Origin: a virus
Direction: 5' to 3' (one strand)
Virus record (IMG/VR): IMGVR_UViG_3300010885_030375
Location: 1-33,679 of that record
Length of the DNA stretch: 33,679 nucleotides
Under the pieces are notes generated by a model, which ran no database searches, was not told the origin of the DNA, and was given only the letters and a program-made list of their open reading frames with translations. Made by a program: the position numbers and the translations under genes. This document shows, piece after piece, positions 3,517 through 28,645 of this stretch. The number at the start of each line of letters is the position of its first letter. Position 1 is the stretch's first letter.

Positions 3517-3528
3517 TGGGAGATTTTG

Positions 3529-6500
3529 ATGGCTCAATGGTGGAACAATGACCCTGTTTATCAAGGTCAGTCCAACAATAATTGGTGGGAAAATGATCCA
3601 ACTTTCAAAACACCTACCCCTCCTCGCCGTCCAGAGGAAGCACAGGTAGCTAGACCTCTAGAGGCTGAAGCCCCTTCATTTACTGAAGTAATGGCACAGC
3701 CTCCTGTTGCCTATGATCCAATGACGGGTATGCCTATTCCTGCTGCTCCAAGTGTGGAAAACAAACCTGACCTCACCACAATTCCCGGAGTCGCATACTA
3801 TAGCGGTGCTGCAAACCTTGGTTCACAAGATCCTGCTGATGTTGCTGCACTGCAACGTTCCCTTGATGCTATTGCGAAGAGGGAAGCTGACCGCGCAAAA
3901 AACCCAACCAAGTTCAGTCAAGTTGAAAAGGAAAAAGGGTTTATTGCGGCTGTTAAAGAAGACCCTGCTGGTTTTGCCAAAGAGACTGGGCAGAACATGG
4001 TTGAAGGCATTGTTCCTATGGGGGCAGCTATTGCGGGGGGTTTGGCTGGTCCGGGCGGTGTTGCAGCTGCTGGCACACTTTCGTTTGGGGCGGATGCCTA
4101 TGCTCGTGCATTGATTGATCAAACCCGCAAGCGCGGTGGTGATTTGGGTAATGCAGAGCAGTTCAACGCCATTTACATGAAGAATAAAGCCGAAATTGAT
4201 GCGGCTGCGGCAAAAGAAGCTGGCATTTCGGCTGCTCAAGGTGCAATTTTTGGAATGATCCCCGGAGGTGGTGGTCTCAAAGGGATGCTTGGCCGTATTA
4301 CTGTTGCGTATCCTTCCGTATCTGTTGCTGGGTCTGGCGCGAAGCGGATGGTCAACGATGAAGAGCCAGCGACCGGAGAAGAGATCCTTAAAGAATACGT
4401 CCAAGGTGTAGCGACTGGTTTGCCGTTCGAGGCTGCTGGTTTTATTCCAAGCGGCGGTGGAAAGCCAAAAGGCCCACCTTCAAACCGGTTGCTGGAAGGA
4501 CCACAGGGCGGTGGTCGTGGACCAGAAGGCGGTAAGCCAACGGAAGGTGGGCCAGCAGGCGGTGGTGCAGCTGAGCAGCCACAGGCCCGTAACCAGACCG
4601 TCACCGAAGCCGAGATCCTCAAGGGCGGCAAGTTTGGTGCTGATGACATTGCTGTTATGAGTCCTCAAGAACGGGCTGCAACCGCTCGTGATCTTGCACA
4701 GCAGGGCATTAAGCCTGAGCCTCTGACCCCTGAAGAATACAACCAGATCTTCAAGCCTCGTACTACTGTTGAAGAGGCATTGGATGAAGCCAGCAAAAAG
4801 AACTTTGTGGATCGGAAGAAAAAAGAAACCCAAGATCGGATGACCCGCACAGAAAACGAAACAAAGAATGAGTTCTTTGCTGTCTTAAAAGGCGATGGTC
4901 TTTCGACACAGGAAATTGGGCAGCTCTCTTGGCCTGAAGTTACTGAACGTGTTCGTAACATCAGAAGCCGTAAAGCAGACAAACCAATCTCTCTTACCCC
5001 TGAAGAAAAGATCGAGCTTAACTTGCCTTTGACTAAGGCTGATCAAAAAGCCTTGGACAAAAAAACTCCGCCAACTACCCCACCGGTTGGTGTTGAGGGG
5101 CGGGGGCCGGAAACTCCCCCGGCCTCCGGTTCCCTTGAAGAGCAAGCTAATGCAACGACAACTGTTACGGGTGAGAAGCCAGCCACAGATCTTACCGCTC
5201 TAACGGAACAGATCCGTCGGCAAAAGGAAAATGAAGCTCGTGGGGGTCGCCCTATTGATGAAGCCATCAATGAGTTGCCAAAAGGCAAAGATGGCAATCC
5301 AGATCTAGGCGTTCTGCAATTAGAAATTAAAAAGCGGACCCCAAATGAGCCGGGCAATACCCCGTGGGAAAACCTTGATCCTCGGCAGCAAGATGACATT
5401 ATCAAAGGGTTGCAGTCTCTCCGTCCCCCTGTCCCGACGGAAACTACTTCCCTGCCGGAAACACCAAGTGTTGAAGAGCCTACGGGCGGGACTAAGCCAA
5501 TAACTGAAGAGCTACCTGTTGGTGGAGCAAAGCCTCCGGCTGCGGAAAAAGAAGTAACTTCACCACAAACACCAACTGGTGAAAAGCCTGTTGCCGAACC
5601 TGAAACCGCACCTGTTGAACATGCGTTTACGTTCAAGACCTCCAAAGGGTCTGAATATGAAATGACAACGGACGGCAAAACTGTCCGCAACAAAGCTGCT
5701 CGTCCTGAACATCCCGGCGATGAAGGTATCAAGCCTCAAAGTGAAAAGACGGTGTTCTTGGATCGTAATGCGGCCAATGCACTTGCACCGCCTGAAAACA
5801 AAAATTGGATTTTGTTGGACAATGGCAATGGCACGGTTAGCCTTGCCACCCAAAACGCAGACGGTCTATGGGGAATGTCTCCATCTCAAAAAGATGTGCC
5901 ATATACGACTACCCCTGAGATCGGGAAGTATCCACTTGAGTTGTGGAAAGGCATCAAAAACGAAACTCTTGGCGCAACTGGGTTTAAAAACATCCACTTC
6001 GGCAATGAGATTGTTGCTGTAAGCCAGTATGCCGAAATGCCTGAGCAGCAGAAGCCGCAGGCCGCTAAAGAGGAAGCGCCACAGGAACAGGCTGCACCAA
6101 AGAAAGAAGTTGCTGCGCCGGAAGAAGCCACCGCACCTCCTGCTCCTCCTGTTAAGGAAGAGAAGCCAAAACCCAAGGAAGAAGAAAACGCCCCTCCTGT
6201 CACGCAGGAACGGCACAAGGTGGAATATGACTTCTTTGGGCCTAATGCCACCAAGATCGACAACATTGCAGGCATGGCCATTTCTGGGTTGGAGTATTCA
6301 GCTCTCAACGAAATTCCTGCTCCTGACTTTAAAGACTACAAAAACTTTAAATCTTTTTTGTCTGAAAAATCATCAAAATACCCAAAGTTAAAAAACTCAA
6401 CAGATAAAGAGATTCAAGAAGGGATTGAGCTTGCTCTTGTTATCCTTGCTCGGAAAATTGTTCTTAATGATCCAAGTTTGCCCAATGGCTTGAAAGTAGA

Positions 6501-9500
6501 TACGCCGCAGCAGAAATTTAATATTTTAAAAAGGTTGTATGATCGCCAGCCGAAGCTGACCGCTCGGACTAGCGAAAGCATTATGAACCAAGCGTATTCT
6601 ACACCAATCCCGCTTGCCTATGTGGCGTCCCGTCTTGCTGGGGTGAACTGGGGTAAGAGCGTTCTTGAGCCTACGGCTGGCAACGGTGCGCTTGTCATTG
6701 AAGCCAACCCTAAGAATACGGTTGTTAACGAATTGCAGCGTGTGCGCCGCGACAGTCTTAAAGCTCTTGGGTTTGATCCGGTTGGGAAAGACGCATCAGA
6801 AAAAGATTTTGTGTCTGGCAACTTCAATGTTGTCATTGCCAATCCTCCATTTGGCCCTGTTAAAGGTAAGGATGGGGACAACAAGGTTTTTGATATGGGC
6901 TTCATTCAGCCCAACTATAAAACCAAAGAGATCGACCACGCTATCTCTTTGACATCTCTTGACCACATGGATGCCAATGGCAACGCCGTCTTGATCATTG
7001 GAAGCGTTCACCCAATGGCTGTAACAGACGAGGCTCGGTCAGAAGGTTTTAATAGCAAGGCAAAGCGAGAGTTCTTCAAGACACTGTATGACAATTACAA
7101 TGTGACGGATCACTTCACCGTGGCCGGCAAACTGTATGAAAGACAGGGTGCGGCATGGCCTGTTGATGTCATCGTGATCAAGGGTAAAGGCAAATCAGCT
7201 TTGCCGCTTCCTGCCGTAAAGGTTCCACCACTCCTCACATCTTGGGAGCAGATCAAGGAGAAAATCCCAAATGAGTCCGAAGCAACAACTGTATCAGCAC
7301 CTACTCAGCCAGTTTCAGAAACTGGAGGGGAAGGAATTACAGCAGGAGCAGAACCAAGTGGACAACCTGATGTTCAAGGGGGGAATCCTGTCAGGAAGCC
7401 CAAAACAAAAACCACTGGAAGTGTTCGTGGCGAACCTAACGCTGAACAATCTGGATCTGGGGTGGGCGTTGACACCGGAGAACCTGAAAAGGGCATTGAA
7501 GGGCCGAAATCCGAGCGATTCAATCAGCTCGCTACTCCCAAGCAACGAGAGATAGTCCACGAAGAAGAAACTGAAACACAGCTTCCTTACTCTCCAAAAG
7601 CTCGTCAGTCTGCTGGATTGGGGACACTTGCCCCCGCCAACATGAAATCATCTATGGAATATGCGCTGAATAACCTTGAGGATAAGCGCGGGGACATTGA
7701 TGCGTATGTTGCTGACCGTTTGAAATACAAGCCAGAAGAATTGGCAAAATACTATTCTGGCGAACAGATCGACGCTCTTGCTCTGGCGATTGATAACCTT
7801 GAAAAAGGATCAGGCTTCATCATTGGGGACCAGACAGGCATCGGTAAAGGCCGCATCAATGCGGGCATCATTCGTTATGCCTTGGTCAACAAACTGACCC
7901 CTATCTTTGTCACTGAGAAAGACAATCTCTACAAGGATATGTGGCGTGATATGTCCAATGAAGAAGGGGTTGGTATCCCAAAATTCCTTGGCAGAGATCC
8001 AAATGTCTTGATTACAGATTTGGGCAAAACCATTGACTTAGATGAAGAGCTTGACGGAAAGAAGATCCGTTCTCCTGCGAACGTAGATGCTATCTACAAT
8101 AGCTCCATTCAATCTGGCAAAATGCCAAACTACGATATGATTTTTACCACATATTCACAGATGCAGACTGTGAAAGGTGAATCCCCGCTGCGCCGCAAAT
8201 TCTTGGAAAGCATGGCCAGCAACTCAATTCTTATTCTGGATGAGAGCCATAATGCGGGTGGCGGTGGAGCTGCAACTCGCGGCAAAGATAAGAATGAAGA
8301 GCTGAACAGGGCTGAGTTTGTCCGCGACATGACTCAAAAGTCGCAAGGGACATTCTTCTCATCTGCTACATTTGCCAAGCGTCCAGATGTTATGGATCTG
8401 TATGCAAAGACTGACATTGGCCTTGCGGTCGATGATATAAGCAAGTTGCCTGAACTGCTGGTCAGAGGTGGCGTTCCTCTGATGTCTGTATTGTCATCCA
8501 TGTTGGCAAAGTCTGGGCAATACATGCGACGCGAACGGACATTCGCTGGAGTCAAATACGAAGCAAAATTGTTTCCTGTAGACAAAGATGTTTACAACGA
8601 CTTCTCCAAGTCGATGATGAAGATTAATGAGTTTTCTCAACTTGTTAATAATGCCACAAAGGACATGAAAGACAGCCTCAAAGCACAGGCAGGGTCTGTC
8701 AGTAGCGATGGGTCAACTGGTGGTGCTGGCCTCGAATCGACAAACTTTACGTCGATCATGCACAACTTGATCAATCAGCTTCTGCTATCAATGAAGTCCA
8801 AGCCAGCTATCGAGGCAGCATTGAAAGCCATCAAAGACGGGCAAAAGCCTGTTTTGACTGTCTCCAACACAATGGAAACATTCTTAAAGACAACGGCTGA
8901 AGACCTTGGTTTATCCATTGGCGACACTGTTGAGCTGACATTTGGTGATTTGCTGCTTCGGTATCTTGATCGCACCCGCACATTGACTCTCAAGGAAGCG
9001 TTTTCCAAAAAGGGCGTAAAGGGCATCAAGCACTATATGACCGATGAGGAGCTTGGCCCTGCTGGTGTTGCGGCATACAAAAAAGCTCGCAACATGATTG
9101 AAGGCATTGATTTTGGTGATCTACCAATCTCTCCGATTGACTACATCAAATACAACATTGAGAAAAAAGGTTACAAGGTCGGTGAAATCACGGGCCGTCA
9201 AATGGTTCTGGATTATGGTGGAGAAGGAAGCGTTAACAAGCCTAGCGCACCATCTTTGGCAACTCGACCATCAGTTGCCACAACAGCAAGAGGCAAGAAC
9301 AAGACTATTGCAGACTTCAATAATGGCACATTGGATGCCATCATTATCAATAAGTCTGGATCGACTGGCCTTTCCCTTCACGCAAAGAAGGGCTTCAAGG
9401 ATGTGCGCCAGCGTCATATGATCATCGTTCAACCGAACGAAAACATTGACACGCACATGCAGACCCTTGGCCGCGTTCACCGCACAGGTCAGGTCATTGT

Positions 9501-12500
9501 CCCTGAATACACGCAGATGATTGCCGACATTCCGGCAGAGAAGCGTCCTGCTGCTGTCTTGGCTAAGAAGATGGCATCAATGAACGCCATTACGACATCT
9601 GCCCGTAAGAGTGCATTGACTGCTGAGAATGTTCCAGACTTTATTAATGAGTATGGGGACAAGGTTGCAGCTCAATTCCTGCGGGACAATCCGGACTTGC
9701 AGGACATACTTGGCATTGATCTTGGTGACAAAACCAAAAACATTGAAGATTTGATGCGCCGTTTGACTGGCCGTATTCCGTTGCTGGAGATTGAAGAGCA
9801 AACGGAAATCTATGAAATTCTTGAGGCTCGGTATGCTGATTTTATACAACAACTTGAGCTTTCCGGCGGTAATGCCCTTGAAACAAAGCGTTTGGATCTT
9901 GATGCCAAGCTGATTGAGAGTGCTGTTGCTCGTGAAGCAACCGGAGACAGCCCGTTTACGGCTGCTGTGATGTATGGCCTTTACGATATTAAGCGCATGG
10001 GCAAGCCAATTACAGCCCGTGACGCGATTGATTATGTCCTTGCTGCTCAAAAATACAAAGAAGAAACAAGCGATATAGACACGGTTGATGATGCTACCGC
10101 GCTTACTAAGCTGCAACAGATGTTTAAGTCGCGGCATAGAGAGATGGTTCAAGCCGCAAAGACCGAGTTTAATGACTATGAAAGAAAGGTTATTGCATCC
10201 ACAGAGGGAAAAGAGCGGCAGGCAAAGCAAGGAGAAAAGCTAACAATCCTCCGTCGGTCTTTTGACCAATTATCTCTGATGCTTGTCCCCGGTCAGCGCA
10301 TAAGGGTTACGTTGCCATCTGGTGAAACAGGCCAATCCCTTGTTATCAATGTTGGTCGATCCGGCAAATCCAATAACCCACTTGTCCCTAGCGATTGGCG
10401 TGTGACATTGGCGTTCCCATCAGGAACCCCAATTATCACAGTCCCATTTAGCCAAATTCAGGTGGGTGGTGATTTTGGGGAAAAGCTAGTTATTGATGAT
10501 TTGTATGGTCAAGACTCTGCAAAATCGTTTGCCGATACGTTCAATCAGCTTGCAGCAGCTGGTGCGCGTGAAAAGCGCGTTATTATCACAGGCAACATTC
10601 TGGCTGGGTTTGACATTGCCAATGGTGAAGGGCAGATCATTAATTTCACCAAGGACGATGGGAAGATTGAGCAGGGAATTTTGCTAAGAAGCAAGATCAG
10701 AACCTTGGCCGATGCGACCAAAGGGACAAAGGAAAAGATCAAAACTGTTGAAGATCTTAAATCTGCTGTTTCTGCCGCTCCGAAACAGACATTGTTGAGC
10801 AACGATGCAGCTGGGGTCATCATCAAAAAAGAAGGTGGCTACTACACGATCAGTGTTCCAAATTCCAAATCCAAGGCTGGGAAATATATTCTTGACCAGC
10901 AGCTGATTGAGTTGATTGGTGGTGGAGGACTTCATTCGGCTGGTTCGCGTATGCAAGCTAAATGGTTGCGTGTTGTTGATCCTAAGACCGATAAGATCCT
11001 TGAACGTATCCTTGCGATTGGTGCTTCGTTCGATAAGCAAATCGACCTGACACCAACATCATACTCGGTATTACGTCCTGCTCTGAAAACCGAAACAGCC
11101 CATGTGGTTCCTGAAGCCTACAAAGAGTTTGAAGGTATCATCAAGCGGACACTGGGTGAGAAGGCCCGTGTTGAGTTTGTGGAGCAGATCAAAGTCACCG
11201 ACTCACAGGCGGCAATGGATTCCGGTGGTGAGCTTGATGATTATGCTTCCGGTTCGCATGATCGACTGACCAATATGATCTATCTGGCGACAAGCCTTGA
11301 GAAAGGCGCATCGCTTCCTGACGCGACATACCATGAAGCATGGCACTCGCTTGAAGACAAGCTGACACCAGCAGAGCGCAAGGCAATCGCTGACGCTCGG
11401 CCAGAGAACAATCGCCTTGTTGCTCAGTATTACGGTGTGCCTGTCGAAAAGATCGAAGCTCTGTCTACTTCAGAGCAAGATGCTTATGCGATGGGCATGT
11501 TTGGCGCCAAGGCTGATGATCAGATCCGCAATGTTGCAATGGGCCGCGCTTCCTACGAAGTGTTCGGCAAAGTCTGGCTGACCTACCGTCGGTTCCGCAA
11601 TGTCGTGAACAAACTGTTCGGCAAGAAGAGCATGGACTCGATCTTCAATGATTTCTATGTCGGCGGCATGTCTGATCGTTTGGAGATGGAAGCCGATGTT
11701 ATGGCCGATAAGATGGGGGTCAAGACATCGGATCTTGCTTACATGGCATTGCGTCAAAAGCGCAAAGGTCCACCAACCCCTCAAAGTTACGAGGTCCACG
11801 ATGATACTCTTACAAATGAATTGATGTATGGCTTCGTTGATAAGTACAACGACATCTCCATGATCCAACGTGCCATTGAGAAGGCTCGTGGCTCTAAGCT
11901 GCCTGAGACAATGGACGTTGAAATGTCTATTGGCCTGTTCAACAATCGGGTTATCGCTCGGCAGGAAAAGGTCTGGGATAAAGAGCTTCAGCCGTTGCTG
12001 GATGAAATGGCGAAACTGAAGATCGAAGAAGCTGATCTTGTTGAATTCCTGTATGCTCGTCACGCTCCAGAGCGTAATGCCAAGATGGCCAAAAGAGATC
12101 CTAAACGGTTCCCTCATGGCGGGTCAGGCATGGAGAATGATGATGCGCAGGACATCGAGGATGCTTTTAAAAATAAGGGTATTTATGATACCTTAGTTAG
12201 ACTTGATGAAAAGTTCGTTCGCCCGATAATTAAGGCTGACCTTGATGAGCGTCTTGCGGCAGGACTTCTGACACAGGATCAATACGACGAATATACAAAA
12301 CCTTACGACGAAGGTGGGTATGATTTCTATGTTCCGTTGCGAGGCTATGCCGAACAGGATGCAGATGCAGAAGTAAATTCCCGTAGTCTTGGCCGTGGGT
12401 TTGGGTTCAGCGTATCAGGCAAGGAATATAAGGCGTCTATGGGCCGCAAAAGCAGAGCCTATAATCCATTCCAGAACCTGATCCAACAGCGCATGGACGG

Positions 12501-14550
12501 TATTGTTCGTCAGGAGAAGAACAGGGTAGACCGCGCTCTTTATCTTCTGGTCAAGAGCAATCCAAACCCAGACTTTGCGGAGATTCTCGACAGCAAGAAC
12601 ATGCCGATGGTCAAATACCTTTCGGCAGATGGGACCGTTCGTCAGCGTCCTGATACCAGCATCTATCGGGATGAGATGACCATTCCGTTCAAGATCAGTG
12701 GTGAAAGCCGTTACATTGTATTCAACGACGAGAACCCTTCAATGGTTCGTTTGGTTCGCTCGTTGAAGAACCTTCCAAATGATTCGCCATCAAAGCTGGC
12801 CAAATTCACGTTTGAGATTGGCCGCTTCATGTCGAAGATCAATACGGCATGGGTTCCAGACTTCTTCTTAACCAACTTCCCACGCGACGTTCAGGATGCG
12901 ATGATTGCCCTATATGGGACAAAGGAAGGGTTCGCCACCAACTTCATGACTGAACTGGCTGGCGCAGGGAAGATCATTGCCAAGGCCGAAACCGTTGGCG
13001 GTTTAAGCTCGCAAGACAAAGCTCTCTATGATGAGTGGGTCTTGAGCGGTGGCCGCATGGAATATGGCGGCTTTGAAAACTTGGAAAAGGTTCAGAGCAA
13101 GATCAGCCGTGAAATGTTCAAAGCCTTCTACGACAAAAAGACCACTAATCAGAAACTCATGCACGGCATGATGGAGTCTGGTCGGCTGACCATCGCAGCT
13201 TTGGAAAAGACAAACCAGATCTTTGAAAGCACCGTTCGCTTTGCCGTCTATCTCGCGGCTCGTAAGGGCGGTTACACCCAAGGCAAGGCTGCTGATTTGT
13301 CTCTAAATGCCACTGTGAACTTCCAGAAGAAGGGCGCATGGATGCCGGGCCTTAACGCTATGAAGCCGTTCTTGTCGGCCAGTGTTGGAGGTATCCGCAA
13401 CTTCGCTCGGTTCTTGATGTCCAAGCGGTTCCGTCGCGCTCTGTATGGCATAATCTTCATGGCCTTCCTGACTGGTCTGCTTGGCGTTTGGATGAACGAT
13501 GATGACAAGAATGAACCCGGAAAGAACACCTACTACACTCAGGTGAGAGGCTGGGAACGCTCAAGGAACGTCATTATCCCAATCAAAAACAAAGATGGCA
13601 GCTTCTACAAGTTTGATTTGGGCTTCCTTATCAAGTCGGCTTGGAACATCGGCGATAACATGGCGGCTGTGGCAACTGGCAATATGACGGCAGAAGACGC
13701 TGCTGTTAATATCGCTACAAGCGCGGTTGATTCCTTCAACCCTGCAAGCCAAGGTTCATTCTGGTCGGCAATTTTGCCTTGGTTTGCGCTTCCTGTTGTT
13801 CAGCTTGCGGTGAACAGGGATTCTTTTGGGAACCGTATCCACCCAGAGCCGGGGACAAAGAACGCTGAGAAGCCAGCATCCGAGCAATATTCCAGCAAAA
13901 CTCCAAACTGGACTGTTGATCTTGCAAGTTTCTTAAACCGGATGACGGGCGGCGATGAGTTTGAGAAGGGCAAGATTGATCTTTATCCCGGAACCATCGA
14001 CTACTGGGCAAAGAGCATTGCTGGTCAGACGGGACAGTTTGTTCAAAGGACGTATAAATCCATTGAGGATGGGCTTGAAGGCATCCCAACTCCATTGGAA
14101 GAGTCTCCATTGTTCCGTCGGCTTGTGACAAAGACAGCTGGCATCAATGAAGGTGCTTACTACGACAAGCGCAAAGAGGTGTTTGCCAAAGAGCAGCTGC
14201 TTAACGACGCATGGGAAGAAGCCAAATCGTCAGGTAGCCCAGCAGCTGAACGCAAGGTTGATAAACTTACGGATGAGCTTGGGATTAGGACTAAGGGTGA
14301 CAATCTGGTTCGCAAGAATAGTTTGCCAGACATGATCCGCAAGAATGACAAGATCCTTAACGATTACCGTGATGAGATTGTGATGATTAAGGGAGATGAT
14401 AAGTTGTCCCCCTTGAACAAGAAGAAGCAGATCACCGAGATTGAAGGCATGATGAGAGAGTATATGGATGAAACTCGCTCTTACATCAACTCTATGAAAG
14501 ATCCAGAGAAGTCTCCGCTTCAGAAGCTAAAAGAAGCAGCAGGAAGATAA
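3529..14550 (+). CDS. giant polyvalent protein: N6-adenine methyltransferase, strawberry-notch/DarB-type helicase, zincin-like motif, LPD-type C-terminus
   Basis: 3,673 residues from the ATG at 3529 (GGGAGA at 3518-3523; a TTG one codon earlier is possible). Residues 1-155 are unstructured and about 163-190 hydrophobic. Residues 300-900 are mostly Pro/Glu/Lys linkers around a small beta-rich domain near 700-830. A methyltransferase follows, with EPTAGNGAL at 1047 and the adenine-MTase motif IV NPPFG at 1105-1109. A superfamily 2 helicase of strawberry-notch type has DQTGIGKGR (1434-1442), DESH (1571-1574) and QTLGRVHRTGQ (1978-1988). A zincin-like HEAWH lies at 2602-2606. A C-terminal segment from about 3095 resembles large polyvalent-protein domains (LPD38-like) and carries a hydrophobic helix near 3305-3323; the last 200 residues are charged coils. 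P1 DarB, which has fused methyltransferase and helicase regions, is packaged and protects injected DNA. The same role here is inferred. One frame is intact throughout, and it ends at a terminator. Confidence 0.93.
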   Translation: MAQWWNNDPVYQGQSNNNWWENDPTFKTPTPPRRPEEAQVARPLEAEAPSFTEVMAQPPVAYDPMTGMPIPAAPSVENKPDLTTIPGVAYYSGAANLGSQDPADVAALQRSLDAIAKREADRAKNPTKFSQVEKEKGFIAAVKEDPAGFAKETGQNMVEGIVPMGAAIAGGLAGPGGVAAAGTLSFGADAYARALIDQTRKRGGDLGNAEQFNAIYMKNKAEIDAAAAKEAGISAAQGAIFGMIPGGGGLKGMLGRITVAYPSVSVAGSGAKRMVNDEEPATGEEILKEYVQGVATGLPFEAAGFIPSGGGKPKGPPSNRLLEGPQGGGRGPEGGKPTEGGPAGGGAAEQPQARNQTVTEAEILKGGKFGADDIAVMSPQERAATARDLAQQGIKPEPLTPEEYNQIFKPRTTVEEALDEASKKNFVDRKKKETQDRMTRTENETKNEFFAVLKGDGLSTQEIGQLSWPEVTERVRNIRSRKADKPISLTPEEKIELNLPLTKADQKALDKKTPPTTPPVGVEGRGPETPPASGSLEEQANATTTVTGEKPATDLTALTEQIRRQKENEARGGRPIDEAINELPKGKDGNPDLGVLQLEIKKRTPNEPGNTPWENLDPRQQDDIIKGLQSLRPPVPTETTSLPETPSVEEPTGGTKPITEELPVGGAKPPAAEKEVTSPQTPTGEKPVAEPETAPVEHAFTFKTSKGSEYEMTTDGKTVRNKAARPEHPGDEGIKPQSEKTVFLDRNAANALAPPENKNWILLDNGNGTVSLATQNADGLWGMSPSQKDVPYTTTPEIGKYPLELWKGIKNETLGATGFKNIHFGNEIVAVSQYAEMPEQQKPQAAKEEAPQEQAAPKKEVAAPEEATAPPAPPVKEEKPKPKEEENAPPVTQERHKVEYDFFGPNATKIDNIAGMAISGLEYSALNEIPAPDFKDYKNFKSFLSEKSSKYPKLKNSTDKEIQEGIELALVILARKIVLNDPSLPNGLKVDTPQQKFNILKRLYDRQPKLTARTSESIMNQAYSTPIPLAYVASRLAGVNWGKSVLEPTAGNGALVIEANPKNTVVNELQRVRRDSLKALGFDPVGKDASEKDFVSGNFNVVIANPPFGPVKGKDGDNKVFDMGFIQPNYKTKEIDHAISLTSLDHMDANGNAVLIIGSVHPMAVTDEARSEGFNSKAKREFFKTLYDNYNVTDHFTVAGKLYERQGAAWPVDVIVIKGKGKSALPLPAVKVPPLLTSWEQIKEKIPNESEATTVSAPTQPVSETGGEGITAGAEPSGQPDVQGGNPVRKPKTKTTGSVRGEPNAEQSGSGVGVDTGEPEKGIEGPKSERFNQLATPKQREIVHEEETETQLPYSPKARQSAGLGTLAPANMKSSMEYALNNLEDKRGDIDAYVADRLKYKPEELAKYYSGEQIDALALAIDNLEKGSGFIIGDQTGIGKGRINAGIIRYALVNKLTPIFVTEKDNLYKDMWRDMSNEEGVGIPKFLGRDPNVLITDLGKTIDLDEELDGKKIRSPANVDAIYNSSIQSGKMPNYDMIFTTYSQMQTVKGESPLRRKFLESMASNSILILDESHNAGGGGAATRGKDKNEELNRAEFVRDMTQKSQGTFFSSATFAKRPDVMDLYAKTDIGLAVDDISKLPELLVRGGVPLMSVLSSMLAKSGQYMRRERTFAGVKYEAKLFPVDKDVYNDFSKSMMKINEFSQLVNNATKDMKDSLKAQAGSVSSDGSTGGAGLESTNFTSIMHNLINQLLLSMKSKPAIEAALKAIKDGQKPVLTVSNTMETFLKTTAEDLGLSIGDTVELTFGDLLLRYLDRTRTLTLKEAFSKKGVKGIKHYMTDEELGPAGVAAYKKARNMIEGIDFGDLPISPIDYIKYNIEKKGYKVGEITGRQMVLDYGGEGSVNKPSAPSLATRPSVATTARGKNKTIADFNNGTLDAIIINKSGSTGLSLHAKKGFKDVRQRHMIIVQPNENIDTHMQTLGRVHRTGQVIVPEYTQMIADIPAEKRPAAVLAKKMASMNAITTSARKSALTAENVPDFINEYGDKVAAQFLRDNPDLQDILGIDLGDKTKNIEDLMRRLTGRIPLLEIEEQTEIYEILEARYADFIQQLELSGGNALETKRLDLDAKLIESAVAREATGDSPFTAAVMYGLYDIKRMGKPITARDAIDYVLAAQKYKEETSDIDTVDDATALTKLQQMFKSRHREMVQAAKTEFNDYERKVIASTEGKERQAKQGEKLTILRRSFDQLSLMLVPGQRIRVTLPSGETGQSLVINVGRSGKSNNPLVPSDWRVTLAFPSGTPIITVPFSQIQVGGDFGEKLVIDDLYGQDSAKSFADTFNQLAAAGAREKRVIITGNILAGFDIANGEGQIINFTKDDGKIEQGILLRSKIRTLADATKGTKEKIKTVEDLKSAVSAAPKQTLLSNDAAGVIIKKEGGYYTISVPNSKSKAGKYILDQQLIELIGGGGLHSAGSRMQAKWLRVVDPKTDKILERILAIGASFDKQIDLTPTSYSVLRPALKTETAHVVPEAYKEFEGIIKRTLGEKARVEFVEQIKVTDSQAAMDSGGELDDYASGSHDRLTNMIYLATSLEKGASLPDATYHEAWHSLEDKLTPAERKAIADARPENNRLVAQYYGVPVEKIEALSTSEQDAYAMGMFGAKADDQIRNVAMGRASYEVFGKVWLTYRRFRNVVNKLFGKKSMDSIFNDFYVGGMSDRLEMEADVMADKMGVKTSDLAYMALRQKRKGPPTPQSYEVHDDTLTNELMYGFVDKYNDISMIQRAIEKARGSKLPETMDVEMSIGLFNNRVIARQEKVWDKELQPLLDEMAKLKIEEADLVEFLYARHAPERNAKMAKRDPKRFPHGGSGMENDDAQDIEDAFKNKGIYDTLVRLDEKFVRPIIKADLDERLAAGLLTQDQYDEYTKPYDEGGYDFYVPLRGYAEQDADAEVNSRSLGRGFGFSVSGKEYKASMGRKSRAYNPFQNLIQQRMDGIVRQEKNRVDRALYLLVKSNPNPDFAEILDSKNMPMVKYLSADGTVRQRPDTSIYRDEMTIPFKISGESRYIVFNDENPSMVRLVRSLKNLPNDSPSKLAKFTFEIGRFMSKINTAWVPDFFLTNFPRDVQDAMIALYGTKEGFATNFMTELAGAGKIIAKAETVGGLSSQDKALYDEWVLSGGRMEYGGFENLEKVQSKISREMFKAFYDKKTTNQKLMHGMMESGRLTIAALEKTNQIFESTVRFAVYLAARKGGYTQGKAADLSLNATVNFQKKGAWMPGLNAMKPFLSASVGGIRNFARFLMSKRFRRALYGIIFMAFLTGLLGVWMNDDDKNEPGKNTYYTQVRGWERSRNVIIPIKNKDGSFYKFDLGFLIKSAWNIGDNMAAVATGNMTAEDAAVNIATSAVDSFNPASQGSFWSAILPWFALPVVQLAVNRDSFGNRIHPEPGTKNAEKPASEQYSSKTPNWTVDLASFLNRMTGGDEFEKGKIDLYPGTIDYWAKSIAGQTGQFVQRTYKSIEDGLEGIPTPLEESPLFRRLVTKTAGINEGAYYDKRKEVFAKEQLLNDAWEEAKSSGSPAAERKVDKLTDELGIRTKGDNLVRKNSLPDMIRKNDKILNDYRDEIVMIKGDDKLSPLNKKKQITEIEGMMREYMDETRSYINSMKDPEKSPLQKLKEAAGR

Positions 14551-24721: not shown

Positions 24722-24822
24722 CAGCCAAACACGCAGATGATAAAAAGCATCAGGCTTGACCAGATCACGAACCCAGCGCAGTTTGCGAGGTCGATCAGCA
24801 GATCCTCAAAATATTGGCTCAT
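24721..24822 (-). CDS. 33-aa membrane micro-protein
   Basis: A short frame with an ATG overlapping the upstream stop as ATGA and a TGA overlapping the next start. The product starts acidic (MSQYFEDLLIDLANC) and ends in one hydrophobic span (GFVIWSSLMLFIICVFG). Both junctions are of the coupled type used throughout this genome, which supports it as a real gene. It is similar in size and layout, not in sequence, to the 37-aa gene at 16532-16645. Confidence 0.6.
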   Translation of the reverse strand: MSQYFEDLLIDLANCAGFVIWSSLMLFIICVFG

Positions 24823-25049
24823 GCTTTCAATCCGTCTAAAATGCCTTCTAGTTCCGCCGTCCAAGCCTCATCAAGAATTTTGTCAATTTCTGCCATGTCT
24901 TCCAAATCTTTCGCATAAGCAGCTTTGGAGAGAGGCATGTCTTTATCATCCAAATCTTTGCTCCATTCTTCGAGCTTCAATCTGGCGCGATAAAACGCAT
25001 GTTGGATTGTTAGCTTTTGCATCGACGTTAACTTCACATCAAAATCCAT
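24819..25049 (-). CDS. acidic helical hypothetical protein, 76 aa
   Basis: The ATG at 25049 is set by the leader GGAAAACCACAATG; a longer frame to 25082 is rejected. The protein is almost wholly helical: TSMQKLTIQHAFYRARLKLEEWSK, then acidic heptads (LSKAAYAKDLEDMAEIDKIL, WTAELEGILDGLKA), so a small coiled coil or DNA-mimic-like acidic protein is possible. No family recognised. Confidence 0.6.
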   Translation of the reverse strand: MDFDVKLTSMQKLTIQHAFYRARLKLEEWSKDLDDKDMPLSKAAYAKDLEDMAEIDKILDEAWTAELEGILDGLKA

Positions 25050-25129
25050 TGTGGTTTTCCTTTCGTTTACTGATGGCCTCATCAGACCCCGACTAACGGG
25101 ATGACTGGGGATTGCTCCCCAGTTTCGGC
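25050..25129 (-). repeat. degenerate copy of the intergenic module
   Basis: After the shared ACCACA leader this gap has an imperfect version of the intergenic element: a 7-bp hairpin CTGGGGA/TCCCCAG (about 25109-25126) and TGATG/CATCA (about 25070-25083). It lacks the ATTGCAAT and GGCAACATTGCC flanks of the six good copies, so it is a relic or a different spacer. Confidence 0.45.
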
Positions 25130-25417
25130 CTATTCGTATGTTGGCTTTCGATCTGGCCAGTGTCGAGGATAGCCCTCAAACACCACCGCAACGTATCGGC
25201 CTTCACTTAACACGCTGTTAATATCGGGCTTGCCCTCATTGAGCGCATCGCATGTTTTTTCTAGGTCATAGGCATATTGCTCGGCAGCGTCTCTGGTGAT
25301 GAACCCTTGGACCAGATTGGCATGATCATCAGCAGGGATACCGCACCCGTAATACCAGCCCCCTTCTTCGGGGCCACCATACGCACGATCCGCTAGGCAT
25401 ATTGCGACGGTAAACAT
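25130..25417 (-). CDS. hypothetical protein, 95 aa
   Basis: AAGGGGG lies upstream of the ATG. Begins MFTVAICLADRAYGG then WYYGCGIPADDHANLVQGF, with a helical EQYAYDLEKTCDALNEG and a beta-strand end (RYVAVVFEGYPRHW). Rich in aromatic residues, with a mixed alpha/beta layout and no known motif. It is ten bases downstream of the clamp gene's stop, so the two are probably cotranscribed. Confidence 0.6.
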   Translation of the reverse strand: MFTVAICLADRAYGGPEEGGWYYGCGIPADDHANLVQGFITRDAAEQYAYDLEKTCDALNEGKPDINSVLSEGRYVAVVFEGYPRHWPDRKPTYE

Positions 25418-25427
25418 GCGATCCCCC

Positions 25428-26060
25428 TTATGCAGCCTGATCGGCCTGATCTGGTTGCGCTTTGGGAGCCTTGGCCCATTCGGTATCAGGAAATGGTCGA
25501 TCTCCCCTGATCGGCATGATCACGCCAAACCAGTCGTAGATGTTTCCGCCATTCAGGTTGACTACCGCAGGATCCAGACCATTGTAGTGGACTGTGATCG
25601 ACGGCTTGCTATCATCAGAGACTATTTTGACGGCTTTCACAAAATCCAGCAGATAGGCTGGGTTGTATTGCGCGACCTCATTCGACCAGCCCTTCGGGAT
25701 CACCCGTGTGTAGTCTGGGAATGTCCCATCGACTAGCTTATCGACAAATACGTCACCAGCGTAGCGGATCGTGATCGTGTCGCCCTCGATGGACAGTGCA
25801 GCATCATCGTTGCCGTTCATTTTGCGTTTGGCGATCTTGATACGGTCGATCAGGCGCAGCGGGATGATGAACCCGTTTAATGGATATTCATCGCCCTCTT
25901 CGATTTTGTGTCGGGCAACGATCATGCGATGACCATCGGTCGCACACATGACAACATGCTCGCCTTGTGCTTTGACATGCACACCTTGCAGATAATACCG
26001 AGTTTCCTCAGTGCTGGCGGCAAAGCGAACGGCTTTTAGTAATTTCATATCCAGTAGCAT
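25428..26060 (-). CDS. short beta sliding clamp (DnaN-like), 210 aa
   Basis: ATG at 26060 after the leader GGAAAACCACAATG (the frame upstream to 26105 is leader). It shows DnaN features: ETRYYLQGVHVK, CATDGHRM (39-46, the VATDGHR signature), FIIPLRLIDRI, DGTFPDYTRVIP (111-122), and VIMPIR (180-185), the VMPMR end motif. Bacterial clamps have about 366 residues in three domains, so this is roughly two domains. It may assemble with a different subunit number, or form part of a host clamp; inference only. A phage clamp would hold a DNA polymerase, here presumably the host enzyme, on DNA. The last 25 residues are an acidic, unstructured tail. Confidence 0.85.
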   Translation of the reverse strand: MLLDMKLLKAVRFAASTEETRYYLQGVHVKAQGEHVVMCATDGHRMIVARHKIEEGDEYPLNGFIIPLRLIDRIKIAKRKMNGNDDAALSIEGDTITIRYAGDVFVDKLVDGTFPDYTRVIPKGWSNEVAQYNPAYLLDFVKAVKIVSDDSKPSITVHYNGLDPAVVNLNGGNIYDWFGVIMPIRGDRPFPDTEWAKAPKAQPDQADQAA

Positions 26061-26131
26061 TGTGGTTTTCCTCTCGTTTTGGCGACATTGCCACGCGAGG
26101 CCCAAGCCTGTCGGGCCTCTGATTGCAATGT
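26061..26131 (-). repeat. intergenic module 1 (leader, palindrome, variable hairpin)
   Basis: Plus-strand order: TGTGGTTTTCCTC (complement of the leader), GGCGACATTGCC, then the hairpin GAGGCCC (26097-26103) with GGGCCTC (26113-26119), then GATTGCAATG. It has the shared architecture of the six modules, with a hairpin sequence unlike the others. It sits between the clamp start and the stop of the next leftward gene. Confidence 0.8.
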
Positions 26132-26338
26132 TTATGAGAAGCGAAATGCAACTTCTGCAATGGCCGCTTGCATCGCCATCTCAACATGGTCCGATGGGCT
26201 AAAATCATTCCATTCGGTCAGTTTTGAAAGCGCATCGTTAAAGGTTTTGTCGGCAACCAAAATTGCTTCGCAGCGTTCAAATGGGTGAACGTCCTGAATG
26301 ATAGCAATCAATTCAGCGGATGGTTTGTGCTTGGTCAT
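26132..26338 (-). CDS. hypothetical protein, 68 aa
   Basis: Start at 26338 set by the leader GGAAAAACCACCATG; the 30-residue upward extension lies in a module and is rejected. The protein has two helices (SAELIAIIQDVHPFERCEAILVAD, and HVEMAMQAAIAEVAFRF) around a short polar stretch. No family recognised. Confidence 0.6.
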   Translation of the reverse strand: MTKHKPSAELIAIIQDVHPFERCEAILVADKTFNDALSKLTEWNDFSPSDHVEMAMQAAIAEVAFRFS

Positions 26339-26411
26339 GGTGGTTTTTCCTTTCCAGTTTGGCGACATTGCCACGGGAAGGCAGGGATGGCCCTGCCTTC
26401 GAATTGCAATG
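26339..26411 (-). repeat. intergenic module 2
   Basis: Contains GGCGACATTGCC (26361-26372), a perfect 10-bp hairpin GAAGGCAGGG (26377-26386) with CCCTGCCTTC (26391-26400), loop ATGG, then GAATTGCAAT. Same layout as the other copies with a different stem sequence. Confidence 0.85.
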
Positions 26412-26609
26412 TTATCTGCTGGCCTCATTCTGCTCGATCTGCTTGGCGATGGTGTTGTTCAGAACCATCATCGCCGTGTAGGCTGCGATACGATCATCTG
26501 GGTCCAGTCTGTTAATGACGTCGAAGGCAAAGGCTCGCGCAGCCTCGACCGTCTCGCGCTCCGCAAACAGATCACAGCGAAGGTAGTGTGCGATTTCTTT
26601 GTTGGTCAT
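26412..26609 (-). CDS. hypothetical helical protein, 65 aa
   Basis: ATG at 26609 overlaps the upstream DUF7007-like stop as ATGA. The sequence is helical throughout: TNKEIAHYLRCDLFAERE, VEAARAFAFDVINRLDP, and a final IAAYTAMMVLNNTIAKQIEQ helix. Possibly a small helical bundle; no family recognised. Confidence 0.6.
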   Translation of the reverse strand: MTNKEIAHYLRCDLFAERETVEAARAFAFDVINRLDPDDRIAAYTAMMVLNNTIAKQIEQNEASR

Positions 26610-26950
26610 GATGCTCTCCGTTTCAAGACCCATTCGGTCATGGTGCGTTGCGCGGCCTCAAGATCGGTTTCCCCTGCGGATCCGCGCCATGCTTTCCATT
26701 CATCAGGAAAGGCAAGGCAGACCATGCACCAATCAACATCTTCCTCGAACCAGCCGTCCTTGCCCTTGCCGCCGAATGACATGGCGAGCCATTCTGCTGG
26801 CATGTCCTTGCGCCGCTCGGCAGAGACATAAAACCCGCCATGACTGGGTGTGTAGATCGACCAGATACCAGCCATCGGCTGTTCTGCGTGATCAGGCTGG
26901 CCCCAAGGGGACCAAGTGGGCTTTGGGATAGCTGCGTATGGTTTTTGCAT
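26606..26950 (-). CDS. DUF7007-like phage protein, 114 aa
   Basis: Leader GGAAAACCACAATG. Contains TPSHGGFYVSAERRKDMPAEW, then GWFEEDVDWCMVCLAFPDEW. The TPSHGG..S..R...P segment and the following W.EED.DW...AFP segment match my recollection of the DUF7007 pattern in phages and plasmids; the function is unknown. It is soluble, with a charged C-terminal helix (DLEAAQRTMTEWVLKRRA). Confidence 0.75.
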   Translation of the reverse strand: MQKPYAAIPKPTWSPWGQPDHAEQPMAGIWSIYTPSHGGFYVSAERRKDMPAEWLAMSFGGKGKDGWFEEDVDWCMVCLAFPDEWKAWRGSAGETDLEAAQRTMTEWVLKRRAS

Positions 26951-27022
26951 TGTGGTTTTCCTCTCGTGTTTGGCAACATTGCCATGCGAGGACAGGCGCG
27001 AACCTGTCCCCTGATTGCAATG
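26951..27022 (-). repeat. intergenic module 3
   Basis: Contains GGCAACATTGCC, hairpin GGACAGG (26990-26996) with CCTGTCC (27003-27009), then CTGATTGCAATG. The hairpin is different from the others in sequence but pairs exactly over 7 bp. Confidence 0.85.
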
Positions 27023-27283
27023 TCATGCTGCGACGCTTGGCTTGAAATAGCCTTTCCAGACGTCGCCCAATTCATCAAAGTGTTTAATCCTTGTGTGGCC
27101 GTGTCCATACCGAGGCTTGTCGGATGTTGCGATTCGGATCATCTCTTTACGATCATGCGCGGCCTTCTCAATGGCCTCGGCCTGATCCCAAGTGTCACAG
27201 GCGACGCAGTAGTAGCTAAAGCCTCCCCGTGCTTCGCCCCAGCCGCTCATAGCCTTGTCTGTCATGTTCACATAGATGGTCAT
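27023..27283 (-). CDS. hypothetical protein, 86 aa
   Basis: Leader GGAGAAAACACCATG. Begins MTIYVNMTDKAMSGWGEARGG, then FSYYCVACDTWDQAEAIEKAAHD, and a basic C-terminal region (KPRYGHGHTRIKHFDELGDV). The strand-helix order suggests a small mixed alpha/beta fold of ferredoxin type; no name can be given. Confidence 0.6.
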   Translation of the reverse strand: MTIYVNMTDKAMSGWGEARGGFSYYCVACDTWDQAEAIEKAAHDRKEMIRIATSDKPRYGHGHTRIKHFDELGDVWKGYFKPSVAA

Positions 27284-27355
27284 GGTGTTTTCTCCGTGCT
27301 GGCGTCATTGCCATGCGAAGGCTGGGGGATGATCCCAGCCTCCTGATTGCAATGC
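27284..27355 (-). repeat. intergenic module 4
   Basis: Contains GGCGTCATTGCC (one change from the palindrome), hairpin AGGCTGGG (27319-27326) with CCCAGCCT (27334-27341), then CTGATTGCAATG. Confidence 0.85.
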
Positions 27356-27757
27356 TCAAAACCCGTCGTAGGGTGAGAGAGGCTCTTCAGCGAGCCGCTC
27401 CTGATATTCGAGCAGACGATCCTGATACTCTTCACTCATCAGGTTGGCGGTTTTCATGAGTTTCTCAACCTCTGGCGTGTTGCTGTAGTCCGCGATCACA
27501 TCGTATCCGTCATTGCCGTAAACAAAGAACCAGAACCCGACTCTGCGGCCCTGCGTTGTGTCGTAAGCCTCGATAGCTTGTTCATCCATATGGCCGAGGT
27601 TGTTCAAGATCAGCATCCTGTCTTTGGTCTGGATCATGTCAGGACCATTCGGGTCTATGGTGTTTTCAACCTTTATTGCCAGACCAGCGGCCAGCAGATC
27701 GGTGACCAGTTGGCTAACAATTTCGGTTTCCATTTCGTGTCGTGTTGGGAGTGTCAT
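27356..27757 (-). CDS. hypothetical protein, 133 aa
   Basis: Leader GGAGAAACCACAATG. A helical N-terminus (RHEMETEIVSQLVTDLLAAGLAI) is followed by a beta-rich central part (DRMLILNN, RVGFWFFVYGNDGYDVIADYS) and a helical acidic end (LMSEEYQDRLLEYQERLAEE). This layout resembles other small phage proteins with no known role. No catalytic motif. Confidence 0.65.
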   Translation of the reverse strand: MTLPTRHEMETEIVSQLVTDLLAAGLAIKVENTIDPNGPDMIQTKDRMLILNNLGHMDEQAIEAYDTTQGRRVGFWFFVYGNDGYDVIADYSNTPEVEKLMKTANLMSEEYQDRLLEYQERLAEEPLSPYDGF

Positions 27758-27827
27758 TGTGGTTTCTCCTAGCTGGCAACATTGCCACGGGAGAGGCAGG
27801 GATGTCCTGCCTCTCGAATTGCAATGC
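27758..27827 (-). repeat. intergenic module 5
   Basis: Contains GGCAACATTGCC, perfect 10-bp hairpin GAGAGGCAGG (27791-27800) with CCTGCCTCTC (27806-27815), loop GATGT, then GAATTGCAATG. It ends at the stop of the next leftward gene. Confidence 0.88.
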
Positions 27828-28046
27828 TTAGATCAGATCGAGCCAATGGCTCGGCTGCCGAAGTGTTTTCTTGGTGTGGTCAGTCAGGACGTGGATCGAA
27901 CGGTTTGTGATCTTGGTCACCGTGCCAGTTGATCGGAAGGGATGATCGAAGGACACTCGGCTGCCGACTTTGAAAATCCTGATCGAGCCGTTTGGGTCAC
28001 GGTCAGGGTAGTGAACAAAGGCCGAGATTGTTTGAACGTGTCGCAT
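27828..28046 (-). CDS. small beta-barrel-like hypothetical protein, 72 aa
   Basis: Leader GGAGAAACCACAATG. Predicted strands: RIFKVGSRVSFDH, TGTVTKITNRSIHVL, then TLRQPSHWLDL. The FKVGSRVSFDH..GTVTKI...IHVLTD pattern resembles an SH3- or KOW-like barrel, as in small nucleic-acid- or ribosome-binding proteins; this is a fold impression only. Confidence 0.65.
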   Translation of the reverse strand: MRHVQTISAFVHYPDRDPNGSIRIFKVGSRVSFDHPFRSTGTVTKITNRSIHVLTDHTKKTLRQPSHWLDLI

Positions 28047-28118
28047 TGTGGTTTCTCCGTCTTGGCAACATTGCCATGCGAGAGCAGGACCGTGATCCTG
28101 CTCCCTGATTGCAATGCC
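28047..28118 (-). repeat. intergenic module 6
   Basis: Contains GGCAACATTGCC, 8-bp hairpin GAGCAGGA (28082-28089) with TCCTGCTC (28096-28103), then CTGATTGCAATG. The last complete copy before the control region. Confidence 0.88.
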
Positions 28119-28340
28119 TCACCACGCAGTCGCTTTGATGTCGTTGTAGTAGTCGCTCATGGTCTCGACGAAGGATCGAACCTCGGCCAGTGCCTTCTGG
28201 AGGCTCCAGCCGTCTGCAACGAATTGCTGTTCGATGTCCTCGTCACTCATGGTCTCGACAATCACGCTCCAGCCGTAAGCCTCGCCGTAGTTGTCGATTG
28301 CAGCCTGTTTGATCTGCGCGACGATCTCTTGCTTGGTCAT
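28119..28340 (-). CDS. hypothetical protein, 73 aa, first gene of the leftward block
   Basis: ATG at 28340 set by the leader GGAGAAACCACAATG. The protein is helical and acidic: MTKQEIVAQIKQAAIDNYGE, then SVIVETMSDEDIEQQFVADG, then LQKALAEVRSFVETMSDYYND. First after the promoters at 28413-28498, so likely expressed earliest in this block. No family recognised. Confidence 0.65.
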   Translation of the reverse strand: MTKQEIVAQIKQAAIDNYGEAYGWSVIVETMSDEDIEQQFVADGWSLQKALAEVRSFVETMSDYYNDIKATAW

Positions 28341-28412
28341 TGTGGTTTCTCCTGTGAGCCTTATCAAGCAGGTCTCTATCCCTGCGACGGTCCAAGAGGG
28401 GACCGTTTCGGC

Positions 28413-28441
28413 TAGTTAGGAGGGGGGTTTCACGATGTCAA
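28413..28441 (-). promoter_or_regulatory. second leftward promoter candidate
   Basis: On the minus strand TTGACA (28441-28436), 17 bases, then TAACTA (28418-28413). The -35 matches consensus, the -10 is poor. It would start transcription close to the ATG at 28340 and lies downstream of the stronger candidate. Confidence 0.35.
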
Positions 28442-28469
28442 AGAGCGGGCGGTTCTGTGGCGCGAGGAC

Positions 28470-28498
28470 AATATGTCCTGTTTTGGACATAATGTCAA
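28470..28498 (-). promoter_or_regulatory. leftward promoter overlapped by twin palindromes
   Basis: On the minus strand TTGACA (28498-28493), 17 bases, then CATATT (28475-28470). Two related near-palindromes overlap it: GGACAATATGTCC at 28466-28478, covering the -10, and GGACATAATGTC at 28485-28496, covering the -35. Their centres are 19 bases apart, so a repressor could bind two sites on similar helix faces and block polymerase. This promoter should drive the whole 28340-23642 block. Confidence 0.55.
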
Positions 28499-28645
28499 AT
28501 CGTATCGATGCCTGTGATCGAGCAGAGTGTCGATTGTCGTATCTCGGTCCAGTCTGATCGACGGCTGCGGAGGCAAATCTCGCGCAGGATCGAAGGCAAA
28601 AATGTTTTTGCGCCAAGTGCCTGCCTTTGATGGTCAATCACATAC

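Follow-up and report, generated by a model that had tools for sequence, protein, structure and literature searches.

Covarying RNA modules and hammerhead ribozyme motifs at successive gene boundaries of an uncultured phage operon

The leftward gene block of an uncultured virus (IMG/VR record IMGVR_UViG_3300010885_030375; the window, i.e., the whole stretch analyzed, is 33,679 nt long) carries an undescribed family of structured RNAs. These modules exhibit strong covariation and recur at gene boundary after gene boundary, with hammerhead ribozymes at equivalent boundaries of the operon. From this arrangement, it seems that a single long transcript is cleaved to yield one message per gene, with an uncatalogued RNA element doing part of the cutting. 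We found no description of the module in the open-access literature. RNA processing at gene boundaries is known in phages; the module family and its mixture with hammerheads are, as far as we could find, new.

Six modules of 52 to 56 nt lie on the minus strand between positions 26061 and 28118 (Table 1), each starting 0 to 2 nt past a stop codon and ending 16 to 21 nt short of the next start codon. The pattern CATTGCAAT-N{20,40}-TGGCAATG matches the window exactly six times, always on the minus strand and within the leftward block, while 100 shuffles gave 0 matches (i.e., 0 expected by chance). Direct reading of the minus strand confirmed the six gaps, with their coordinates and stems, listed in an earlier note on this DNA, and several finer details were revised. 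The inner stem has 9 to 11 bp rather than 7 to 10 bp. The TCGC said to follow the hairpin is present in four of the six copies (stems at 28110, 27348, 27016, and 26124), with CCCG in its place in the other two; the proposed second flank, GGCAATGTTGCC, is exact in three copies and reads TCGCC in two and ACGCC in one; and the leader description fails for two leaders, which end in ACACCATG and ACCACCATG. The internal loop falls into two classes in the window (i.e., AATCAG/CGCRTG and AATYCG/CCCGTG). The hairpin of module 4 recurs unchanged, ahead of the same downstream gene, in two related phages (G001 and G003).

Table 1. Features of the leftward block, in window coordinates
Feature	Position	Strand	Class	Stem	Remarks
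Promoter-like TTGACA-17-CATATT	28470..28498	-			Reads into the block; consensus match only (10/12)
Hammerhead-like element, U3-A8 core	28350..28413	-			Upstream of the block's first gene
Module 1	28062..28116	-	A	GGGAGCAGGAT	2 nt past stop of gene 28119-28340; P1 CATTGC/GCAATG; tail TTGCCAA
Module 2	27773..27826	-	B	GAGAGGCAGG	1 nt past stop of gene 27828-28046
Module 3	27299..27354	-	A	GGAGGCTGGG	1 nt past stop of gene 27356-27757; tail ACGCCAG
Module 4	26970..27022	-	A	GGGGACAGGT	0 nt past stop of gene 27023-27283
Module 5	26359..26411	-	B	GAAGGCAGGG	0 nt past stop of gene ending at 26412
Module 6	26079..26130	-	A	GAGGCCCGA	1 nt past stop of gene 26132-26338; upstream of the beta-clamp-like gene
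Beta-clamp-like DNA polymerase processivity factor	25428..26060	-			
Type II hammerhead ribozyme	25071..25130	-			Gap between genes 25130-25417 and 24819-25069

A search of related phage genomes, which the earlier note had proposed, recovered at least 15 further copies from seven other uncultured phage contigs, by pattern and protein scans of viral contigs followed by a structural scan. Among the matches listed, G001 (57.9 kb) and G003 contributed four copies each, G008 (L289) and G010 (L348) two each, and G005, G007 (L217), and G009 (L336) one each; further copies probably exist beyond these. G002, which is almost a duplicate of the window, was left out of the counts. The first broad viral pattern scan returned mostly chance matches, and only matches with a hairpin, tail, or start context were kept. 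The scans that yielded the 15 copies gave, on shuffled sequence, one spurious match in 2.5 Mb and none in 3.6 Mb (one strand each). The distance to the stop codon is 0 to 3 nt in 20 of the 21 copies and 7 nt in the remaining one. No match to the module model was found in six named phages sharing the terminase or beta clamp, and searches of named phages with one module or with DNA close to the block were likewise negative. A screen of 399 sampled Pseudomonadota genomes, with stricter filters and with no positive control among them, yielded no module. A possible diverged relative of the module occurs in G005 (L162, minus strand, ~5361-5300 and 6680-6620), in which a GC-rich hairpin followed by ACTGGTTGCCA occupies two gaps (26 bits for the first gap). 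G001, with its four modules, also carries a CyVA-1 RNA (Rfam RF02965; L158:3863-3940, minus strand) scoring 47.4 bits, above the gathering score.

Comparison of the 21 copies shows that the module RNA folds into an outer stem of 6 bp (P1) and a variable stem of ~9 to 10 bp (P2), between which lie, in order from P1, an A-G mismatch, two pairs, and a 2x2 mismatch that is conserved. Together these make up an almost uninterrupted helix, ~21 positions long, flush with the upstream stop codon. The alignment contains 17 pairs, of which 12 are doubly changed, and 99.7% of the cells are paired. Double-change cells number 57, compared with 13.7 in shuffles, as counts of cells that are not independent events, since copies within one phage are related; the covariation score is 0.556, compared with 0.08 to 0.10 when the partners are slid. 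The view that the structure is under selection, put forward in the earlier note, is thus strongly supported, with covariation far above every control. All 21 cells holding standard pairs other than Watson-Crick ones are G-U and none is A-C, which indicates selection on RNA in the sense (coding-strand) direction. Purines make up 78% of the P2 5' arm.

The outer stem deserves separate consideration, since it is invariant within the window and the six copies alone therefore support only the inner stem. CATTGC/GCAATG, pointed out in the earlier note, lies within the predicted minimum-energy fold of all six copies (z, -3.2 to -5.7), and compensatory changes in the relatives bear it out (P1 variants CATTGC/GCAATG, TATTGC/GCAATA, and TAGTGC/GCACTA). 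The G001 variant was spotted by eye, and the scan that accepted the G009 and G010 copies required the tail and complete pairing of P1 (six pairs). For the G007 copy and the first of the two G008 copies, the retrieval pattern ignored the tail and the three outer pairs of P1, and the accepting scan left the outermost pair free; both copies are therefore unbiased at that position. Beyond P1, the pair at columns 9 and 41 varies (U-G, U-A, and G-C among the copies), so the helix continues past the constant A-G mismatch, and the 2x2 mismatch is retained in one of three forms (CA/GC, YC/CC, and CC/CA).

Intergenic gaps longer than 40 nt in the block contain a module or a hammerhead in 7 of 7 cases in the window, 5 of 5 in G001, and 4 of 5 in G003, whereas short gaps and gene overlaps contain neither. 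The exceptional gap in G003 (L136:445-498) has another GC-rich hairpin, GGGGAGCG-CGAAAT-CGCTCCCC. In the diverged phages G008, G009, and G010, homologs of the beta-clamp gene have a module upstream and/or downstream, indicating that the association is old. Around the promoter-like site, TGTCC/GGACA repeats (28460-28500, including AGGACATATTGTCCT) overlap the match, with a similar layout in G001, and may constitute a repressor operator. Tandem short repeats (GGTGGCGGAT; CGGTCGAGCGC) occupy the first 250 bases of L289 and L348, upstream of the early block. Elsewhere in the window, an open frame of 3674 aa (3526-14550) in the structural-gene region is unusually long for a 33.7-kb record.

Gene families 15, 16, and 18 occupy differing places among the phages and have moved as module-bordered units, and identical P2 stems are found at non-equivalent boundaries. 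The modules are therefore interchangeable, with mosaic joints lying at the modules. The earlier note had raised the possibility of recombination joints that allow cassettes to be swapped, and this agrees with the evolutionary history; as the main role of the modules, however, acting as DNA cassette boundaries, it is highly improbable. Compensatory pairs with G-U and never A-C, together with one fixed orientation, point to RNA, and by inspection the modules have no integron-type R boxes (GTTRRRY/RYYYAAC), which also removes integron attC sites from the candidates. Since joints do not explain the RNA-type covariation, cassette shuffling is probably a consequence; it occurs at the modules but looks secondary.

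The same block contains two hammerhead candidates. The type II hammerhead, in the gap at 25130-25082, has an intact core (GAAAC/GUC/CUGAUGA), closed stems I and III, and an open stem II, and is predicted to cut between 25103 and 25102. The equivalent gap in G001 and G003 also holds an intact type II hammerhead (core CUGACGA), and the G001 copy has an A-U to G-C change in stem III. Per-genome E-values in the three phages are 1.6e-5, 4.6e-5, and 3.4e-6, with scores all under the Rfam gathering cutoff (28.4 versus 37 bits). The second candidate, the hammerhead-like element, is a weak match (E, 0.0067; 18.3 bits) in which UUGAUAA replaces CUGANGA; its predicted cut lies between 28386 and 28385. 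Its G001 counterpart reads UCGACAA, adding U4C. Natural covariation of C3-G8 to U3-A8 is reported to retain activity, and a viroid hammerhead with U4C is reported to function, although weakly (PMC3088659). Beside the type II hammerhead (window 25067-25083 region, minus strand) lies CTGATG-AGGC-CATCAG, which in G001 and G003 reads CTGACG-AGGC-CGTCAG (L137, ~10976-10992; L136, ~2615-2632); this covarying hairpin would sequester the hammerhead core and is possibly a 5'-end fold adopted after cleavage. A different viral contig (L252:6960, plus strand) also has a clean type II hammerhead, located a short distance upstream of a start codon.

The modules have the potential for a second hairpin. The 3' strand contains UGGC and the tail contains GCCA; these exact complements are invariant in all copies, including those fetched regardless of the tail, and the second base of UGGC is constant although it is mismatched in P1. 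Pairing of the two excludes P1. According to partition functions, P1 is the prevailing fold of each of the six window copies when the RNA is intact (0.74 to 0.98), while removal of the 5' part yields the UGGC/GCCA hairpin at 0.58 to 0.95 in five of the six; the window copy at 26130 reaches only 0.05. In three copies from G009 and G010, this hairpin is favored already in the uncut RNA. Because UGGC/GCCA never varies, it is without covariation support, and comparison cannot prove the hairpin.

This mutual exclusion of P1 and UGGC/GCCA fits an uncut structural insulator, in which the hairpin would protect upstream 3' ends or serve as a stop-codon ribosome switch. In the latter form, a ribosome at the flush stop would cover the 5' arm of P1, the UGGC/GCCA hairpin would form, and translation of the next gene would then depend on that of the previous one. 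Given the size of a terminating ribosome's footprint, the spacing of 0 to 3 nt does place the 5' arm of P1 within it. The ribosome-binding site, however, is about equally accessible in both computed states, leaving a switch without an obvious output, and the hammerheads in equivalent slots are not accounted for. We consider an insulator unlikely.

We favor, with only slightly better than even confidence, a different role: the module would be a gene-end RNA-processing element that splits the polycistronic early transcript, most likely through cleavage by host RNase III. In such a scheme, the enzyme would act close to the mismatches in the middle of the helix, as in the early region of T7. With the 3' strand cut, the upstream message would end in the P2 hairpin, which would protect its 3' end, and UGGC/GCCA would be freed to pair as a protective hairpin at the new 5' end, immediately before the ribosome-binding site of the downstream message. 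The long message would thereby be converted into single-gene messages with hairpins at both new ends. The two hammerheads would serve the same purpose at other operon boundaries, making modules and ribozymes interchangeable parts.

We infer cleavage of the modules from three lines of evidence, i.e., the hammerheads at sister boundaries, the T7-like position and geometry, and the ability of an alphaproteobacterial RNase III to cut T7 R1.1, an intergenic RNase III site with an internal loop (PMC6121014). The RNase III of S. meliloti has a preference for longer duplexes, and its cut in R1.1 falls at an atypical position (PMC6121014). The host is probably alphaproteobacterial, judging mainly from terminase similarity to Caulobacter phages (~51%). 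No phage-borne RNase III (Pfam PF14622) was found in the four phages searched, so a host enzyme would have to act. Among the functions proposed in the earlier note, a processing site is the best supported, through the hammerheads at two other boundaries and the resemblance to T7 RNase III sites. Attenuation was dismissed along with intrinsic termination, as no module has a U-tract or a terminator-like site.

Two further candidates were set aside. A DNA operator formed by the palindromes ATTGCAAT and GGCAAYRTTGCC is inconsistent with the copies: the second palindrome is disrupted in half of them, and in the TAGTGC/GCACTA variant both repeats are partly rewritten with pairing kept. A small upstream ORF from the ATG in GGCAATG was rejected by inspection, as its spacing from the next start varies modulo 3.

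The invariant GCAA, UGGC, and GCCA flanks, next to an apical stem that is free to vary, could also be read by a protein. The module would then be bound by an RNA-binding protein encoded by the phage or the host (i.e., a translational repressor or antitermination factor), in keeping with its confinement to the early block. No candidate protein was identified, the modules occur as one copy per gene rather than as a nut-like single promoter-proximal copy, and hammerheads in sister slots are left unexplained; we regard such a role as distinctly improbable.

A new class of small self-cleaving ribozyme, used interchangeably with hammerheads at gene boundaries, is possible, although improbable and less likely than a processing element. 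Its active fold would be of the single-internal-loop "lantern" type, with two stems round one internal loop and the invariant GC-AA/UGGC and GCCA nucleotides. The modules occupy the same slots as hammerheads in one operon, their unpaired GCCA tail is invariant, and twister sister, pistol, and hatchet emerged from searches near genes associated with known ribozymes (PMC6154101). However, 5 of the 12 internal-loop positions differ between the classes (CA/GC, YC/CC, and CC/CA), which is unusual for a catalytic core, and no Rfam 15 covariance model, ribozymes included, gave a match overlapping any module at E up to 3 to 5.

If the modules are cut, this phage operon releases every gene on a separate message and uses two different means to do so. 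Phage hammerheads, for which such a job has long been proposed but unproven, would gain a concrete one, and the operon would illustrate a compact way to split polycistronic RNA. Should the modules cleave themselves, they would represent a new ribozyme class.

Several known systems resemble the modules in part. The start-associated sequences (SAS/ESAS) of cluster K mycobacteriophages (PMC3203893), with which the earlier note compared them, likewise occur in many copies just upstream of gene starts and comprise imperfect inverted repeats with a variable spacer. The likeness is limited to layout: the module stem covaries throughout and directly follows stop codons, while ESAS has no two-stem fold shown, and the SAS sequence is absent (the 13-mer GGGATAGGAGCCC before starts gave five matches with two to three mismatches, compared with 6.9 expected, none at a module). 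The twister-sister-like "lantern" ribozymes, RNAs of 31 to 35 nt that can self-cleave, also have two stems and one internal loop (PMC11620745); compared by hand with its description, their loop differs in sequence from that of the modules, and its conserved CA cleavage dinucleotide is absent from class B.

The T7 early RNase III sites (R1.1 and others) differ from the modules in sequence, and R1.1 has an asymmetric 4/5-nt loop where the modules have symmetric conserved A-G and 2x2 mismatches. Module stems also vary fully and are accompanied by the extra UGGC/GCCA hairpin, and module cleavage is predicted. Both are nevertheless hairpins with an internal loop between co-directional, co-transcribed early genes, located between the stop codon and the next ribosome-binding site, with a two-part helix and an upper stem of ~9 to 10 bp. 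The hammerheads of phages and prophages provide the other parallel (PMC3088659). The six modules are not hammerheads themselves, since they have no core (CUGANGA, GAAA, and UH at a three-way junction) and no ribozyme match. In prophages, however, multiple hammerheads flank genes and have been read as processing long transcripts (PMC3088659); they share with the modules their operon slots and flush position after stop codons, and two true or probable hammerheads lie in the module block itself.
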